DNA of 16,842 nucleotides from Deltaproteobacteria bacterium (lineage in GTDB: Bacteria; Bdellovibrionota_F; JAHFAK01). Position numbers and translations under genes: made by a program. Location: positions 1-16,842 of the forward strand of contig JAHFAK010000025.1 in NCBI GenBank assembly GCA_023250585.1, written 5' to 3'. The notes below the pieces were generated by a model. It had not been told where the DNA came from. It ran no database searches and was given only the letters and a program-made list of their open reading frames with translations. Below, piece by piece: positions 3,241 through 11,809 of this stretch; positions within the stretch are counted from its first letter, which is position 1, and each line of letters opens with the position of its first letter.

Positions 3241-4164
3241 ATGACAGCTGAGATTATGAAAGACATCAAAAAAAAAATTTACGAACATAAAATATATGAC
3301 CGGGTCTTTAGTTTGATAGGCGTGATTCTAACTTTTATGGTACTCATGGTTCTCTTCGTTCTTTTAATTGACCTTATGCGGAATGGAGTTCCCCGGCTAT
3401 CTGTATCGTTTTTTACTTCATATCCATCACGTTTTGCAAATAGAGCAGGTATCCTTTCAGCATGGGTAGGCACAATTTTAGTGATGACGGTTACGGCGAT
3501 TGCAGCTGTACCCATCGGTGTCGCTGCAGGAATTTACCTCGAAGAATATGCGCGGAAAAATTGGATAACCAACTTGATTGAAATAAATATTACTAATCTT
3601 GCGGGCGTGCCCTCCATTATTTATGGTCTTATGGCATTAGGAATTTTTGTATATCAACTTGAACTTGGACAAAGTATTCTCACTGCCGGATTAACGTTGA
3701 GTCTCCTTATCCTTCCTATTGTCATTGTTTCAACCCGCGAAGCATTGAGGACTATTCCAATCGGTATTCGAGAAGCAGCTCAGGCCGCAGGAGCAACGAA
3801 ATGGCAAGTCGTTAAAGATCATTTGGTGCCCTATTCAGCAGGTGGTGTGTTTACGGGAATAATCATCGCGTTATCGCGAGCCATTGGCGAAACTGCGCCT
3901 CTTTTGACGATTGGAGCGCTGACATTTATTGCATTCCTTCCCGACTCTCCGTTTATGGGAGAATTCCCCTATATTTCATTTGATTGGCTTCTTTCTCCCT
4001 TTACAGTCATGCCCATTCAGATGTTTAATTGGGTCTCTCGGCCCCAGATAGATTTTCATAAAAATGCTGCTGCAGCTGGATGTGTACTAATTTTTATGAG
4101 TATAGGCATGAATGCATTGGCAATGTATCTTCGCTACAAATATAGGAAAAAAATTCAATGGTAA
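3241..4164 (+). CDS. pstA: PstA, phosphate ABC transporter permease
   Basis: This is the second Pst channel subunit (307 residues). About six membrane segments are visible: 22-45, 75-99, 118-138, 145-164, 203-231 and 276-297. The coupling loop REAAQAAGATKWQV (177-190) is followed by SRAIGETAPLLTIGAL (212-227), the PstA-type version of the motif, and NITNLAGVPSIIYGLMALG (116-134) is a strong PstA signature. The start is uncertain: ATG at 3241 has no clear ribosome binding site, and an in-frame ATG at 3256 is equally possible; neither choice changes the membrane domain. The gene follows pstC closely, but a repeat-rich gap of 240 bp separates it from pstB, which is unusual for this operon. Confidence 0.94.
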   Translation: MTAEIMKDIKKKIYEHKIYDRVFSLIGVILTFMVLMVLFVLLIDLMRNGVPRLSVSFFTSYPSRFANRAGILSAWVGTILVMTVTAIAAVPIGVAAGIYLEEYARKNWITNLIEINITNLAGVPSIIYGLMALGIFVYQLELGQSILTAGLTLSLLILPIVIVSTREALRTIPIGIREAAQAAGATKWQVVKDHLVPYSAGGVFTGIIIALSRAIGETAPLLTIGALTFIAFLPDSPFMGEFPYISFDWLLSPFTVMPIQMFNWVSRPQIDFHKNAAAAGCVLIFMSIGMNALAMYLRYKYRKKIQW

Positions 4165-4404
4165 CTTTACACAATCCCATAACATCGCATACCTTCGTTG
4201 CTTCCTCGCCTCGTCGTTGCGTCCTACTACGCTCCTACGGAGCTTCGAAGGACAAGTTTTGTTTAAAGTACTTGCTCTCACCAAAGCTTGTCCTGCGTAG
4301 TTCCGAAGGAACGAAGCAGGATCGTTGCGGCGTAACTAAAAGTACGCCTCACTTCTCGACTTCGTCGCGCCTTGGTTTGCTCGTTCTGAGATTGCGTAAA
4401 GACA
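4165..4404 (+). repeat. Repeat-rich spacer inside the pst operon with a long imperfect palindrome
   Basis: This 240-bp gap between pstA and pstB is visibly richer in G and C than its neighbours and holds no credible gene. An imperfect inverted repeat has arms 4222-4261 and 4282-4321 (about 32 of 40 positions pair) around a 20-nt loop. Its core is GGACAAGTTTTG against CAAAGCTTGTCC. A smaller perfect hairpin, GGCGTA/TACGCC, lies at 4329-4348. Reading frames cross the block but look like shadows: Ser/Arg/Leu-rich and without family resemblance. The base composition and structure suggest a dispersed genomic repeat. An mRNA-level role between pstA and pstB, such as transcript stabilisation or partial attenuation, is possible but unsupported beyond position. 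Confidence 0.65.
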
Positions 4405-5915: not shown

Positions 5916-6965
5916 ATGACTACGAGTATTTTGAGTTTACTTGGAGAAGAAGCATCACATCTATTAAACTATAAGGCGAAAGTATCAGCTGATAAAATTC
6001 ATATTCCCGGCCCTGATTTTGTTGATCGCAGCTTCATTTCTTCTGATCGGCCCAATACAGTCCTTCGTAATGTATCTACTCTTTTTAATCATGGAAAATT
6101 GGCTCATACTGGATATCTTTCTATTTTACCAGTGGATCAAGGCATTGAACACTCTGCTGGAGCTTCATTTGCGCCAAATCCAATATATTTTGATCCCGAA
6201 GCAATTGTAAAACTTGCTATTGAAGGTGGATGTAATGGCGTTGCTTCTACGCTTGGCGTATTGGGGAGTGTGTCGCGAAAATATGCCCACAAAATTCCTT
6301 TTATTGTAAAATTAAATCATAACGAACTTCTGACCTACCCCAATAAATATGATCAAATTCTTTTTGGAAGCGTGAAACAGGCATTTTCAATGGGAGCAAT
6401 CGGAGTAGGTGCGACGATTTATTATGGATCTGATGAAGCAACTCGCCAGATTACAGAAATTTCCCAGGTTTTTGAATATGCCCATGAGCTTGGGATGATA
6501 TGTATTTTATGGTGCTATTTACGAAATTCAGCATTTAAAGTCGAAGGCAAGGACTATCATGATGCAGCTGATCTTACTGGCCAGGCAAATCATTTAGGAG
6601 TAACAATTCAGGCAGATATTATTAAGCAAAAACAACCGACGCATAATGGTGGGTATAATGTCCTTAAATTTGGGAAGACCCATCCTAAGGTGTATGAAGA
6701 TCTTGCAAGTAATCATCCGATCGATCTAACGCGCTATCAAGTCATCAATAATTACATGGGCCGTATTGGGCTTATTAATTCCGGTGGTGAATCAGGTAAA
6801 AACGATCTTGCTCAGGCAGTCCGTACCGCAGTTATCAATAAGCGTGCTGGTGGCATGGGCCTCATCTCTGGCCGTAAAGCCTTTCAAAAGCCTATGAAAG
6901 AAGGCATCGAACTCCTCAATGCGATTCAAGATGTGTATTTAAGTAAAGAAGTCACGATTGCGTGA
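5916..6965 (+). CDS. fbaB: Class I fructose-1,6-bisphosphate aldolase (FbaB/DhnA type)
   Basis: It catalyses reversible cleavage of fructose-1,6-bisphosphate to dihydroxyacetone phosphate and glyceraldehyde-3-phosphate by a Schiff-base mechanism. The 349-residue protein carries [11 protein letters not shown] (70-80), the phosphate/active-site loop of the DhnA family, VKLNHNELL (131-139), and the Schiff-base Lys, most likely K237 in [10 protein letters not shown]. The stretch [17 protein letters not shown] (278-294) is the C-terminal phosphate-binding part. Length and motifs resemble the E. coli FbaB enzyme. A very strong ribosome binding site (AAAGGAGG) is 5 nt before the ATG, and the gene probably has its own promoter in the 72-bp gap after phoU, though none is clear. 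Its last 99 nt recur at 7611-7709, on the far side of the PIN cassette, so its present 3' end may have arrived with that cassette. Confidence 0.94.
6867..6965 (+). repeat. Direct repeat, left copy (functional 3' end of fbaB)
   Basis: These 99 nt match 7611-7709 at 92 positions, with the copies offset by exactly 744 bp. This copy encodes the C-terminal 32 residues and stop of the intact aldolase. Sequence similarity ends right after the shared TGA: here GAGAGGTGG follows, which is the ribosome binding site of the PIN gene; at the other copy AATTAATACTG follows. Together the two copies bracket the PIN/partner cassette. Confidence 0.9.
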
Positions 6966-6980
6966 GAGAGGTGGAATATT

Positions 6981-7433
6981 ATGAAACAACGAGTTTATAT
7001 TGATACTTCTGTTATTGGTGGTTGTATTGATGATGAATTTTCTGAATGGTCAAATAAATTGTTCCATGAATTTCGTAATGAATTTAAAATTGCTGTTGTG
7101 TCTGATTTGACACTCAAAGAACTTGAAAAGGCGCCGGTGACAGTCCAAGAAGTATTGGCGCAATTATCTAAAAAACATATAGAGTATGTTTTTCTCTCTC
7201 GTGAATCAGAAGATCTTGCAGATAATTATCTTAAAAATAAGATAGTTCCATACAATAGTATTATCGATGCTCAACATATTGCCATAGCATCAGTAGCCAG
7301 AGCCGATGTTCTTGTTAGTTGGAACTTTAAACATGTAGTAAATTTAAATCGAATTAGAGGTTTTAATTCTGTTAATTTAAAATTGAATTATCCTCTTTTG
7401 GAAATTAGAAGTCCGATGGAGGTCTTAATATGA
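6981..7433 (+). CDS. PIN-domain protein, VapC-like putative toxin
   Basis: It is a probable Mg-dependent ribonuclease of the PIN superfamily and a likely toxin of a type II pair. The 150 residues open with VYIDTSVIGG (5-14), where D8 is the first acidic metal ligand. E47 in TLKELEK and D96 in SIIDAQHIAIA are the second and third. At the fourth position the sequence reads LVSWNFKHVVN (111-121), with N115 where many PIN proteins have Asp; this W-N-F form is, from memory, common in one PIN subgroup. A good ribosome binding site (AGAGGTGG, 6967-6974) lies 6 nt before the ATG, and only 15 bp separate it from fbaB. The downstream small gene overlaps it by 4 nt. Toxin activity and RNA target are inferred, not visible. 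Confidence 0.8.
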   Translation: MKQRVYIDTSVIGGCIDDEFSEWSNKLFHEFRNEFKIAVVSDLTLKELEKAPVTVQEVLAQLSKKHIEYVFLSRESEDLADNYLKNKIVPYNSIIDAQHIAIASVARADVLVSWNFKHVVNLNRIRGFNSVNLKLNYPLLEIRSPMEVLI

Positions 7434-7600
7434 AGAAAAAATTTAATGCGGTTGAATATCAACGAAAGATTCGAGAAGAATTAAGTAAACAATATATTAA
7501 AGATAAGGAATTGGTATTGAAAGAACTAAAGAAATATAGTAATTTAAAGACAGTTGAGACTAAAAAACAACGCTCTCATGCTCTGTATGTAAGAAGATAG
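7430..7600 (+). CDS. 56-residue basic protein, putative antitoxin partner of the PIN protein
   Basis: This short gene starts in the ATGA overlap with the PIN gene stop and is preceded by GGAGG (7418-7422) with 7-nt spacing, so it is well supported despite its size. The product begins MKKKFNAVEYQRKIREEL and is rich in Lys, Glu and Arg, with a predicted helical middle (about residues 8-36) and a basic tail ending in ALYVRR. I recognise no DNA-binding fold such as ribbon-helix-helix or AbrB. From memory, small lysine-rich proteins of this style often accompany PIN toxins. The order toxin-then-antitoxin is the reverse of classical vapBC. Antitoxin function is inferred from size, overlap and neighbour. 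Confidence 0.75.
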   Translation: MKKKFNAVEYQRKIREELSKQYIKDKELVLKELKKYSNLKTVETKKQRSHALYVRR

Positions 7601-7610
7601 ATATTTTTCT

Positions 7611-7709
7611 TCCGGCCGCAAAGCCTTTCAAAAGCCTATGAAATAAGGCGTCGAACTCCTCAATGCAATCCAAGAAGTGTATTTAAGTAAAGAAGTCACG
7701 ATTGCGTGA
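7611..7709 (+). pseudogene. Displaced, nonsense-mutated copy of the 3' end of fbaB
   Basis: In the aldolase frame this stretch reads as the last 32 codons plus stop of fbaB. It differs from the intact tail (6867-6965) at 7 of 99 positions: four synonymous third-position changes (Ser, Arg, Ala, Ile codons), two conservative replacements (Ile to Val, Asp to Glu) and one nonsense change, GAA to TAA at 7644-7646. The upstream part of the gene is absent; the similarity begins about 10 nt after the small partner gene. The substitution pattern suggests two aldolase alleles that diverged while coding, after which this copy lost constraint. It is probably either the original tail displaced by an insertion or a remnant of a second fbaB copy. 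Confidence 0.88.
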
Positions 7710-7715
7710 AATTAA

Positions 7716-7750
7716 TACTGCTCCCTCTTGCCGTATAGGGCAAAGCAGTA
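7716..7750 (+). repeat. Stem-loop after the displaced fbaB tail
   Basis: TACTGCT (7716-7722) pairs with AGCAGTA (7744-7750), and TTGCC (7728-7732) pairs with GGCAA (7739-7743) across a 5-nt bulge. It starts 6 nt after the TGA of the displaced aldolase tail, so it may be the 3' structure of the ancestral fbaB transcript. There is no T-run after it, so I do not call it an intrinsic terminator. Confidence 0.5.
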
Positions 7751-7873
7751 ACGAGGAATAAAAATATGATAAAGGACCTATTCCGAAGTAGCTTCATTTG
7801 TATGAAACTATAATGCAATACATAAAAAATTGCAAGTTATTTTTTGCTTAGGGGGGGCAGTAGAAAAAAGTCT

Positions 7874-8026
7874 ATCCGCCTTCGCAGAGTAGCATGGCAT
7901 ATGCCGTGGGTGAATGCGCGGGAGGCTTCGGCGGATGTCGCCCCAGGACTTACAGGCGGATACCCTCCGTAGCCTTGGCGAAGGAGGGTAATAAATGGTA
8001 CCACGGCTTTAGCCGTGGGCTCCATA
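7874..8026. repeat. Composite palindromic repeat cluster
   Basis: Several hairpins lie in series. ATCCGCC (7874-7880) pairs with GGCGGAT (7930-7936), and a second GGCGGAT lies at 7955-7961. GGCATATGCC (7896-7905) is a perfect palindrome. TACCCTCCGTAGCC pairs with GGCGAAGGAGGGTA across a 2-nt loop (7961-7990, 12 of 14 positions). CCACGGCT/AGCCGTGG (8001-8018) is perfect with a TT loop. The composition differs sharply from the AT-rich flanks. This looks like a cluster of dispersed REP-like elements rather than a gene; a short open frame on the minus strand is a by-product. Confidence 0.7.
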
Positions 8027-8170
8027 AAGTTAGTGAGATAGTGACTATATTGTCATGAAAATACAATCATACCTTATAGAAAAAATGTATACAAGACACC
8101 TCTACTGGAAATCTTTTTTATTGTGTAGTATGTTTTATCTCCAATTACAATAATCATGCAGGAGAATATT

Positions 8171-9160
8171 ATGACTGAACTAAACATTGAAGCATTAAAT
8201 ACCTACGTTAAAGAGCACAGCACTTTTGTAACGAAGGTTTATGAAGAAGTCGGAAAGATTATTGTCGGTCAGCGATATATGATTGAACGTATGATACTGG
8301 CACTTTTAGCTGATGGACATATCTTGGTTGAAGGAGTTCCGGGGCTTGCAAAGACGACTGCGGTGAAAACACTGGCTCAAACAATTAAAACAGGATTTCA
8401 GCGCATTCAATTTACGCCCGATCTTTTGCCGGCGGATGTAGTTGGTACGCAGATTTATCAGCCGAAAGATGGAAATTTTACCATAAAAAAAGGACCAATT
8501 TTTAGTAATATTATTTTAGCCGATGAAATCAATCGGGCGCCATCGAAAGTTCAGTCAGCGCTGCTTGAAGCTATGCAAGAGCGGCAGGTAACGATTGGCG
8601 AAAATACATTCAAACTTGATAATCCTTTTTTAGTTATGGCAACGCAAAATCCCATTGAACAAGAAGGAACCTATCCATTGCCTGAAGCACAAACTGATCG
8701 TTTTATGTTCAAACTCAAAGTTACGTATCCAACAAAAGAAGAAGAAAAAAATATTATGAAACGCATGAGCCGTTTAGAACAAATGGATGTGAATGCAGTA
8801 ATAGCGCCGGAAGCTATTATCAAAGCTCGTACGATAGTTGATAGTATTTATATTGATGAAAAACTTCATGATTATATTCTCAATATTGTTTTTGCCACAC
8901 GAAATCCAAAGGATTTTGGTTTAGGTATAAGTCACTACATTCAATATGGAGCGTCGCCACGTGCTTCAATTTATCTTGCAAAAGCAGCACGTGCCTTGGC
9001 ATTTTTAAATGGCCGCGGCTATGTGACTCCTCAAGATATTAAAACCATTGGTCACGATATTTTACGCCATCGGGTGCTTTTGTCCTATGAAGCAGAGGCA
9101 GAGGATATAACCAGTGATGATGTTATTACACAAATTTTTGATAAAATTGAAGTACCGTAG
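8171..9160 (+). CDS. MoxR-family AAA+ ATPase
   Basis: MoxR ATPases are thought to act as chaperones that assemble or activate the von Willebrand A (VWA) proteins encoded beside them. The chosen start (ATG 8171) has AGGAG at 8160-8164, 6 nt upstream; an in-frame ATG at 8156 would place that site inside the gene, so I reject it. The 329-residue product has Walker A GVPGLAKT (55-62), the MoxR insert FTPDLLPADVVGTQIY (81-96), Walker B ILADEINRAP (115-124), sensor 1 ATQNPIEQEGTYPLPEAQTDRF region (157-178) and a lid domain. It heads the DUF58-bat gene cluster, the standard arrangement. A 187-bp gap with two hairpins separates it from the next gene. Confidence 0.94.
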   Translation: MTELNIEALNTYVKEHSTFVTKVYEEVGKIIVGQRYMIERMILALLADGHILVEGVPGLAKTTAVKTLAQTIKTGFQRIQFTPDLLPADVVGTQIYQPKDGNFTIKKGPIFSNIILADEINRAPSKVQSALLEAMQERQVTIGENTFKLDNPFLVMATQNPIEQEGTYPLPEAQTDRFMFKLKVTYPTKEEEKNIMKRMSRLEQMDVNAVIAPEAIIKARTIVDSIYIDEKLHDYILNIVFATRNPKDFGLGISHYIQYGASPRASIYLAKAARALAFLNGRGYVTPQDIKTIGHDILRHRVLLSYEAEAEDITSDDVITQIFDKIEVP

Positions 9161-9164
9161 AAAT

Positions 9165-9197
9165 GTTACACGTTTCTTCGAGGAAGCGTAGAGTAAC
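9165..9197 (+). repeat. Stem-loop just after moxR
   Basis: GTTAC (9165-9169) pairs with GTAAC (9193-9197), and ACGTTTC pairs with GAAGCGT (one G-T pair) around a TTCGAG loop, giving about a 12-bp stem with a small bulge. It begins 4 nt after the moxR stop. No T-run follows, so readthrough into the DUF58 gene is expected; a role as a partial terminator or mRNA 3' protector is possible. Confidence 0.5.
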
Positions 9198-9339
9198 AGT
9201 TCAGTAAATGGGTGAGTAAGTTCCCAAAAAGTATTCCTATCGACGTCGCTTCCATAATACTATTAAGAATGGGGTAAGCGCGCTCGATAGAAATACTTTT
9301 TGGGAACTTACTCACCCATTTACTGTGTATTACGACATA
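9193..9339 (+). repeat. Short intergenic motif, copy split by the 124-bp inverted repeat
   Basis: GTAACAGTTCAG (9193-9204) and ACGACATA (9332-9339) flank the inverted repeat. If 9205-9322 is taken out, the remaining 31 nt align without gaps to the pstS-pstC copy (about 25 of 31 positions), which suggests the inverted repeat was inserted into this motif. Confidence 0.4.
9202..9325. repeat. 124-bp near-perfect inverted repeat, candidate miniature inverted-repeat element
   Basis: Left arm 9202-9243 and right arm 9284-9325 are reverse complements over 42 bp with one mismatch (C9236 opposite A9291 region). The 40-nt centre continues the symmetry in part: CGCTT/AAGCG (9247-9251 and 9276-9280) and CCAT/ATGG (9252-9255 and 9269-9272). 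There is no coding content. If the ends are taken as AATGGG...CCCATT, the element is flanked by TA on both sides, as a TA target duplication of the IS630/Tc1-mariner type would leave; this is suggestive only, since TA also fits the symmetry. As RNA it would form an extremely stable hairpin between moxR and the DUF58 gene. Confidence 0.85.
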
Positions 9340-9347
9340 GGTACATT

Positions 9348-10235
9348 ATGCTTTCAAAAGAATTACTTAAAAAAATAAAACTTATTCAGCTCCATACAGA
9401 ACGACTGACAAATGCTGTTCTTGCTGGTGAGTATGAATCGGTATTCAAAGGACGCGGGATAGAATTTGATGAAGTTCGTGAATATATTCCCGGTGATATG
9501 GTTCGCTCGATTGATTGGAATGTTACGGCTCGGATGGGGCATCCTTTTGTAAAAATTTATAAAGAAGAACGAGAATTAACGATTATGCTGCTTGTTGATC
9601 TTTCGTATTCAGGACGATTTGGATCACAAGAAAAATTAAAAAATGAAGTTGCTGCTGAGCTTGCCGCCTTTTTTGCGTATCTTGCTATTAAAAACAACGA
9701 TAAAGTAGGCGCGATTCTTTTCACCGATCGAGTAGAAAAGTATATACCGCCAAAAAAAGGCAAGGCCCATATTTTTCAGGTAATTAAGGAAATTTTAAGT
9801 TTTACTCCACAGCATAAAAGAACACATATTCCCTCGGCACTTGAATATCTTTTGCATGTGGTGAAGAAAAAAAGTATTGCCTTTTTGATTTCTGATTTCC
9901 AAGATAAAAATTATGATCGCTTACTGCGACTTGCCTCAAAAAGACATGACCTCATTGCTGTTACTATTGAAGATCAACGTGAGATTGCGATGCCAAAGAT
10001 TGGTTTAGTCGAACTTTTTGATGGAGAACGTGAAGACTCAATTGTCATTGATACGCATGACCCGCGATTTCAGAAGATGTTGCAGGAAAAAGCATACGAG
10101 AGAAAAAGAATATTTAAAGAACTGCTTCGACAAACGAAAGTAGATGGTATTACAATTCAAACTCACGGAAATTATGTGGAACCGGTTATAGAATTTTTTA
10201 GAAAACGGGAAAGCCGTGCGTACCAGCTCAGTTAA
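9348..10235 (+). CDS. DUF58-family VWA-like protein of the MoxR/Bat cluster
   Basis: This is a cytosolic DUF58 protein, a regular companion of MoxR ATPases. The 295 residues include the family signature GRGIEFDEVREYIPGD (35-50) followed by SIDWNVTAR (54-62). A VWA-like core follows with a metal-site motif D84-L-S86-Y-S88 in MLLVDLSYSGRFGS. The start at ATG 9348 gives the usual N-terminus (LLKKIKLIQLHTERLTNAVLAGEYES); a longer reading from a TTG at 9300 would begin inside the inverted repeat and adds 16 unrelated residues, so it is rejected. The ribosome binding site is weak (ATAGGT). Function is probably assembly or regulation of membrane VWA complexes; no specific substrate can be read from the sequence. 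Confidence 0.92.
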   Translation: MLSKELLKKIKLIQLHTERLTNAVLAGEYESVFKGRGIEFDEVREYIPGDMVRSIDWNVTARMGHPFVKIYKEERELTIMLLVDLSYSGRFGSQEKLKNEVAAELAAFFAYLAIKNNDKVGAILFTDRVEKYIPPKKGKAHIFQVIKEILSFTPQHKRTHIPSALEYLLHVVKKKSIAFLISDFQDKNYDRLLRLASKRHDLIAVTIEDQREIAMPKIGLVELFDGEREDSIVIDTHDPRFQKMLQEKAYERKRIFKELLRQTKVDGITIQTHGNYVEPVIEFFRKRESRAYQLS

Positions 10236-10287
10236 TCGGTGGAGTTAGGGAGTACAGCCGTACCAGTATTTAACTATGAACGACATA
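10220..10287 (+). repeat. Short intergenic motif, copy with a longer spacer (DUF58 end to DUF4381 start)
   Basis: GTACCAGCTCAG (10220-10231) spans the end of the DUF58 gene, and ACGACATA (10280-10287) lies just inside the next gene. The 48-nt spacer includes a second GTACCAG (10260-10266). The left word overlaps coding sequence, so it is less certain that this copy is the same element. Confidence 0.3.
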
Positions 10288-10797
10288 CGAGATATAAAGG
10301 GAATAGAAAGTGTTTTTTATTCATGGCAAGAAATTGCAGCCGTTCTCATAATTATTGTGCTTTTTATTGCCATGATTATTGCATTGATTTTTTTTATTAA
10401 AAAACGAAAGAAAAAAGAAAAGCCAAAGATTATAGAGCCCGCACATGTAATTGCCTTACGAGCATTAGAAGATTTAAATAAAGAGGGCCTTCTCGGAAAA
10501 AAACTCTATAAGAAATATTTCTTTCGCCAGACAGAAATATTTAAAATGTATCTTGAGATGCACTTTCGTATCGATGCGCTTGAAAAAACAACTGAAGAAT
10601 TCAAACAAGAAATTATGCATGCTCATGAGCTCAATGGACACGTTGACAATATTATAACTTTTCTGTCCGATACTGATTTGATTAAATTTTCAACCTTTCT
10701 TCCAGATGAAAATAAAATAGTAAAATTGAGTGAATACCCAAAAGAATTGATAGATAAAACAAGAATTATTTCTGAGCCGCTAACCTCTAAACCCTAA
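10276..10797 (+). CDS. DUF4381-like single-pass membrane protein of the Bat cluster
   Basis: The 173-residue protein has a short N-terminal part, one membrane helix (about 20-41), a strongly basic stop-transfer segment (KKRKKKEKPK) and a cytoplasmic domain. The tail pattern, AHVIALRALEDLNKEGL then KKYFFRQTEIFKMYLEMHF, TTEEFKQEI and a late DLIKFSTF, resembles DUF4381 proteins, which sit between DUF58 and batA genes in many Bat operons. The gap to the upstream gene is 40 bp and to batA 13 bp. No clear ribosome binding site precedes the ATG; GGGAG is about 20 nt too far upstream. Family assignment is by pattern and position, and the molecular role is unknown. Confidence 0.75.
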   Translation: MNDIRDIKGIESVFYSWQEIAAVLIIIVLFIAMIIALIFFIKKRKKKEKPKIIEPAHVIALRALEDLNKEGLLGKKLYKKYFFRQTEIFKMYLEMHFRIDALEKTTEEFKQEIMHAHELNGHVDNIITFLSDTDLIKFSTFLPDENKIVKLSEYPKELIDKTRIISEPLTSKP

Positions 10798-10810
10798 CCG
10801 AGCATTGAGT

Positions 10811-11809
10811 ATGTATTTTAGATTTGCATATCCATATGTACTGTTTTTTTTATTGAGCCTTCCATTAATGATCTATGTGTTTCGTAAGCAACGGAAAAAA
10901 CAAAGTATTCTTTATTCATCAATTGAAGTTTTAAAAAAAATTTCTCCATCGTGGCGCGTTTCTTTGAGGCATTTAGTTTTTGGACTAAAAATGCTTGCGG
11001 TTGCTTTTATAATCATAGCGCTCGCTCGACCCCAGAGCGGTTTCAAGGAAAGAATTGTTACTTCAGAAGGAGTAGATATTATAATCGCTATTGATACCTC
11101 AGGAAGTATGCAAGCCCTTGATTTTAGTGATGAACAAAGACAAGTAACTCGCCTTGCAATTGCGAAGAAAGTTACTGCTGAATTTATTGAGAAAAGAACC
11201 TATGATCGCATTGGCATGATTGTATTTGGAAGCGAGGCGTATACTCAGTGTCCTTTAACGCTTGATTCTGGAATTCTTTTGCAGTTTCTTAATCAACTCG
11301 AAATTGGTATGGCTGGAGAAGCAACCGCAATTGGGAGCGCTCTTTCACTTGGAGTGAAACGCATGAAAGATCTGAGCGCTAAATCAAAAATTATTATCTT
11401 GCTGACAGATGGAAAAAATAATGAAGGAAGTATTAGCCCTGATACGGCCGCAGAACTTGCTCAATCGTATGGTATTAAGGTATATACAATTGGAATCGGT
11501 AAAAAAGGAAAAGCTCCCTTTTTAGTAGATTCATTTTTTGGCAAACAGATTGTCTATCAAGAATCCGACCTTGATGAAGAAGCGCTCAAGCAAATTGCAT
11601 CTAAAACAAATGGAAAATTTTATAGAGCTACGGATACCGAAAATTTTAAAACAATTTATGATGAAATTGATAAGCTTGAGAAATCAAAAGTTGAGCTTAA
11701 AGAATATGATCATTTTAATGACTTGTTTCATTATTTTTTAATTGTTGGTATTGCATTATTGCTTATAAGTATCGTGGCAGAACATACGGTTTTTAGGAAA
11801 ATTCCATGA
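10811..11809 (+). CDS. batA: BatA, membrane-anchored VWA protein
   Basis: BatA is an inner-membrane VWA protein of the Bat (Bacteroides aerotolerance) system. With the ATG at 10811 it has 332 residues; an in-frame TTG at 10805 is an alternative two codons upstream, and neither has a good ribosome binding site. Two N-terminal membrane helices (about 5-23 and 55-72) are followed by a VWA domain with a complete MIDAS: DTSGSM (95-100), the conserved Thr in GEATAIGSAL, and ILLTDGKNNEG. A C-terminal helix (FLIVGIALLLISIV) ends the protein. The ATGA overlap with batB couples the two. The physiological role of Bat proteins is debated: stress or oxygen tolerance, or envelope maintenance. Confidence 0.93.
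   Translation: MYFRFAYPYVLFFLLSLPLMIYVFRKQRKKQSILYSSIEVLKKISPSWRVSLRHLVFGLKMLAVAFIIIALARPQSGFKERIVTSEGVDIIIAIDTSGSMQALDFSDEQRQVTRLAIAKKVTAEFIEKRTYDRIGMIVFGSEAYTQCPLTLDSGILLQFLNQLEIGMAGEATAIGSALSLGVKRMKDLSAKSKIIILLTDGKNNEGSISPDTAAELAQSYGIKVYTIGIGKKGKAPFLVDSFFGKQIVYQESDLDEEALKQIASKTNGKFYRATDTENFKTIYDEIDKLEKSKVELKEYDHFNDLFHYFLIVGIALLLISIVAEHTVFRKIP

Follow-up and report, generated by a model that had tools for sequence, protein, structure and literature searches.

The stretch of DNA analysed here (16,842 nt from a Deltaproteobacteria bacterium; referred to as the window) raises the question of how a small cassette resembling a toxin-antitoxin (TA) module came to lie between two copies of the 3′ end of an aldolase gene. 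The gene, fbaB (5916..6965, + strand), encodes a class I fructose-bisphosphate aldolase and is intact with 349 codons (NCBIfam NF006707, E 4.7e-196; PF01791, E 6e-63). Its last 32 codons and stop codon constitute the left copy of a 99-nt direct repeat (6867..6965, + strand), which ends exactly at the TGA and is the functional 3′ end of the gene. The right copy (7611..7709, + strand) is a displaced and decayed fbaB tail that has no start codon and contains a nonsense codon at 7644-7646, where GAA at codon 329 is changed to TAA.

The two copies align without gaps and are 93% identical, a match far beyond chance (self-BLAST E 1.7e-36), and the seven mismatches between them exclude an assembly duplicate. 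In the source genome, the 99-nt sequence is present in two copies only, both at the fbaB locus. The C terminus of FbaB is conserved across 82 other FbaB sequences, and in the right copy the Asp corresponding to codon 339 is replaced by Glu, a residue absent from this position in 87 aligned loci. The Glu and the stop codon identify the right copy as the decaying one. The seven differences comprise four synonymous changes, two conservative changes and the nonsense change; at least four synonymous changes out of seven are unremarkable if one copy drifts while the other is conserved (P ~0.27). This composition fits decay of one copy and also, weakly, a tail imported from elsewhere. Downstream of the displaced tail lies a stem-loop (7716..7750, + strand; -15.2 kcal/mol), which is presumably the original 3′ flank of fbaB. 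The stem-loop pointed out at 7716 in the first-pass annotation is real, but it lacks a U-run and is therefore not a clear terminator.

The cassette between the repeats (6966..7610, + strand; 645 nt) has a GC content of 30% versus 39% in the flanks. It starts immediately 3′ of the fbaB stop codon with GAGAGGTGG, which resembles a ribosome-binding site and is part of a Shine-Dalgarno-like leader, GAGAGGTGGAATATT (6966..6980, + strand). The leader is followed by a gene of 150 codons for a VapC-like PIN-domain protein (6981..7433, + strand) and by a partner ORF of 56 codons (7430..7600, + strand), a candidate antitoxin gene that overlaps the PIN stop codon by 4 nt and ends 10 nt before the right repeat. 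These are the only two ORFs in the 645 nt; no recombinase, transposase or integrase is encoded there, and no inverted terminal repeats were found at the cassette. The first-pass annotation had described a TA-like gene pair without a recombinase between an fbaB-completing left repeat and a broken right one, and we confirm this description including its coordinates. No promoter-like match was detected ahead of the PIN start codon. Lacking an evident promoter of its own and opening with a ribosome-binding site directly after the fbaB stop codon, the cassette is probably transcribed together with fbaB. The suggestion that the cassette and fbaB function are linked finds no support beyond this probable co-transcription.

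The PIN assignment is based on the family alignment, profile matches and a predicted structure. On its own, the window protein scores below Pfam's PIN cut-off; however, 9 of 10 members of its family match PF01850 at E <= 0.01, with a best value of 1.6e-7. The AlphaFold model has a pLDDT of 93.9, and the top matches in a structural search with this model are VapC proteins, i.e. solved VapC toxins (E 7e-5). In the family alignment, D8, E47, D96, H99, S113, W114, N115 and F116 are invariant, and these include the acidic catalytic-type residues D8, E47 and D96 together with N115. PIN homologs have an ORF of 52-73 codons at the place of the partner. Profile searches with the partner itself gave no match to a TA or DNA-binding family. 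The nearest plasmid homologs of the pair are on Leptospira plasmids (L356, L357), where both genes are kept and the annotation of one homolog reads VapC family toxin. No PIN homolog was found in phage records, and nine distant ones are present in viral contigs. As in type II VapBC systems, a PIN fold with acidic catalytic residues is combined with a small overlapping partner gene; by contrast, the PIN gene precedes its partner, which is the reverse order, and the partner lacks a recognised antitoxin domain. In total, these comparisons make a TA function of the pair likely, with the PIN protein as candidate toxin RNase and the partner as candidate antitoxin. On the Leptospira plasmids, the pairs lie directly 3′ of the gene for the replication initiator, the position expected of an addiction module.

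Is the duplicated tail a feature of fbaB or of the cassette? Among ~82 other loci with a full FbaB C terminus, none has a second fbaB tail, and duplication of the tail is therefore not a habit of fbaB. A search for fbaB in close relatives found none: the source phylum is represented in our set by one other genome, which has no fbaB, and a scan of named genomes returned distant fbaB genes only (<=78% identity), none of them close enough to show an empty site at this locus. One account of the locus holds that two fbaB genes once stood in tandem, that the second was almost wholly deleted and that the PIN cassette came into the gap. An earlier second copy is compatible with the survival of nothing but a tail. 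Yet neither a tandem gene nor a second tail occurs in the ~82 other loci, the retained part stops exactly at the stop codon, and unrelated genes bracket the same PIN family in the same way (see below), all of which makes this account hard to credit. The preference of the first-pass annotation for insertion over a tandem gene that decayed in place is upheld.

We scored a locus as bracketed if direct repeats (>=40 nt, >=75% identity) enclosed a gap of at most 1300 nt, and random windows from the same contigs as the PIN loci served as control. In a set covering many lineages, 9 of 65 loci with a PIN homolog were bracketed versus 0.72 expected, leaving 56 of the 65 without a bracket, and 19 of 1471 other ORF-like segments on the same contigs were bracketed. 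In an independent cyanobacterial set (n=40), 19 of the 40 PIN loci were bracketed versus 1.35 expected. A VapC-family control yielded one other ORF, too few for a comparison. The bracketing repeats at the other loci are 41-219 nt long, and the cassettes of the family measure about 0.5-1.2 kb. Thus, the bracketing pattern is a property of the PIN family and not of fbaB. No second gene-tail bracket was found in the sampled contigs of the source genome. In the one similar repeat pair of this genome (L233; G000 contig C30, 1734-3431), a 78-nt intergenic repeat, probably a dispersed repeat, brackets an ORF of 446 codons. In another genome (L168 in G043, 7287-11770), the PIN cassette and two nucleotidyltransferase/HEPN-like TA modules are separated by the same 50-180-nt repeat, a layout suggesting that other TA types may move or amplify likewise.

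PIN genes could also gather in repeat-rich regions, in which case the brackets would be dispersed repeats that existed before the cassettes and were joined to them by chance. Seven loci indeed have dispersed-repeat brackets (L223, L328, L329, L331, L342, L345 and L350). Moreover, in 9 of the 19 cyanobacterial brackets the repeat sequence is related to that of another locus, and these may be dispersed repeats or a single inherited insertion; not every bracket is therefore an independent target duplication. The other 10 of the 19 are locus-specific, although the expected 1.35 refers to all 19 and not to this subset. Against chance siting as a general account, the controls were drawn from the same contigs, the window repeat is an fbaB tail that occurs just twice in the genome, and about ten brackets are the ends of genes adjoining the cassette. 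We regard chance siting as very improbable for the window.

In these about ten cases, which include the window, the repeat corresponds to the end of a neighbouring gene, and both kinds of gene end are affected. Besides that of fbaB, the 3′ ends are those of genes for a Uma2 protein (L239 in G047), EF-G (L355) and an MGMT-like protein (L320), of the RNase P RNA gene (L217; Rfam RF00010) and of an ORF of 599 codons of unknown function (L210). The 5′ ends are those of genes for CbiD (L340), an epimerase, where the repeat takes in the region upstream as well (L201), a methyltransferase (L336) and an LpxB-like protein (L352), the last being named by us without a Pfam match. Some other PIN-cassette brackets consist of intergenic DNA. 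In the window (6965) and at the 599-codon ORF (8984), the repeat stops precisely with the stop codon of its target gene, which may be chance or a hint at the junction.

Two of these loci resolve which copy is the remnant. At the LpxB-like gene, the intact gene lies outside and the remnant copy has ATT instead of the ATG start codon. At the RNase P locus, the remnant has, at several conserved positions, bases that are absent from all 14 aligned relatives, and the intact copy is in line with the congener G402. With a decayed remnant and an intact tail that matches a congener, neither RNase P tail looks imported. The patterns at both loci are those that would be predicted by duplication of the target followed by decay of the useless copy.

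These data bear on the proposal of the first-pass annotation that an integrative element aimed at gene 3′ ends brought a replacement tail. In integrative elements of this type, such as the e14 prophage at icd, a second 3′ end keeps the target gene intact, and the same is true for the cassette in the window. If a non-autonomous element had been integrated by a tyrosine or serine recombinase supplied in trans, the left copy would be the tail of the element and the right copy that of the host. The layout is as in 3′-end integrations, the differences between the fbaB copies lean synonymous, and among the cases are the 3′ ends of five identified genes and a tRNA bracket. Unlike the e14/icd-type elements, however, the cassettes have no recombinase and measure hundreds of bases rather than kilobases, no common attachment core was found between the loci, and 5′ gene ends are duplicated as well. 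That 5′ as well as 3′ ends are duplicated speaks against a replacement tail delivered by an element, as do brackets made of an RNA gene end or of intergenic DNA and RNase P copies that represent a decayed host duplicate and not an imported tail. On the sequence comparisons, a replacement tail therefore appears less likely than target duplication, and we consider integration of such an element unlikely. The tRNA bracket (L226 in G177, 7407-10583) contains the PIN cassette in a 3-kb segment with a full tRNA gene on one side and a weaker-scoring copy on the other, and looks like a classical tRNA-targeted insertion.

Neither cassette ends common to the loci nor general inverted terminal repeats were found across the family. 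A 10-nt inverted match at the LpxB-like locus was considered as a transposon end and is probably due to chance. Integron gene cassettes, which can carry TA genes, are small and apparently promoterless, as is the cassette in the window; by contrast, the repeats here are host gene sequence, and the 10 nt between the partner stop codon and the repeat leave no room for attC.

An occupied and an empty site can be compared at the Uma2 locus. In G047, two 138-nt copies of the Uma2 tail surround the cassette. In G397 and G395, which belong to the same genus, the Uma2 homolog has one tail, followed after ~7 nt by the right flank, with no PIN homolog. Part of the 138-nt repeat is also a dispersed cyanobacterial sequence.

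Altogether, we consider it probable that the 3′ end of fbaB received a VapC-like PIN/partner cassette and that ~99 bp of the target were duplicated in the process. The duplication would have left the gene intact through its upstream copy, and the downstream one, now free to decay, would have gained its nonsense codon; we infer that the window repeat was born in the same event as the insertion. With respect to the recombination step and its enzymology, the simplest route would be a single-crossover (Campbell-type) or illegitimate integration of a molecule consisting of the cassette and a short stretch of target. Excision between the repeats would be the reverse and would regenerate such a circle. 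The idea that excision rejoins fbaB holds only for a crossover downstream of codon 329; a crossover in the upstream 24-nt identical run would keep the TAA, and the last 21 residues would be lost.

The cassette itself is probably the mobile unit, since the PIN family does the same at many unrelated targets in many lineages. Surviving insertions are expected at gene ends, the only places where duplicating ~100 bp leaves the gene whole. The brackets around relatives of this toxin in many other bacteria suggest that its family spreads on its own, with none of the enzymes that usually move DNA. A more far-reaching possibility, which we put forward tentatively and regard as rather doubtful, is that the PIN/partner family is a minimal self-spreading element consisting of the TA pair alone, which would insert at many targets with long target duplication, survive mainly where a gene end is regenerated, and be aided in insertion or fixation by the toxin nuclease or by addiction.

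The kind of event is known, and the cargo family and the breadth are new. For restriction-modification (R-M) genes, carrier-free insertion with target duplications about 100 bp long has been proposed (Nobusato 2000, Furuta 2010; summarised in PMC3874152 and PMC3031569). As described there, R-M insertions share with the PIN cassettes a compact selfish gene pair, the lack of a transposase, target-derived direct repeats of ~100 bp and empty sites in relatives. They differ in that the PIN cargo is a VapC-like cassette of TA type, about 0.65-1.2 kb in size, that the targets here are often gene 3′ or 5′ ends, and that the PIN cassettes occur in many lineages, whereas R-M insertions come mainly from H. 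pylori comparisons. A literature search, outside of which most subscription papers lay, returned no report of target repeats on either side of PIN or VapC cassettes.

It has long been asked how bare TA modules pass from one chromosome to another with no carrier. The PIN family offers a countable signature (target-sequence brackets in 14-48% of the sampled loci), gene-end targets and an occupied/empty pair, which together make an R-M-type mechanism testable on a much smaller unit. For annotation, duplicated and broken gene tails beside PIN genes call for caution, as they are insertion scars and not pseudogenised paralogs.

Two further intergenic segments of the window have counterparts elsewhere in the same genome. 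The segment at 7855-8035 is GC-rich (56%) and folds strongly (-72 kcal/mol), and fragments of it recur in other contigs (L229, L235), which points to a dispersed palindromic repeat family. The segment at 4160-4400 (46% GC) lies between pstA- and pstB-like genes, and a portion of it is present again at the end of a contig (L234).
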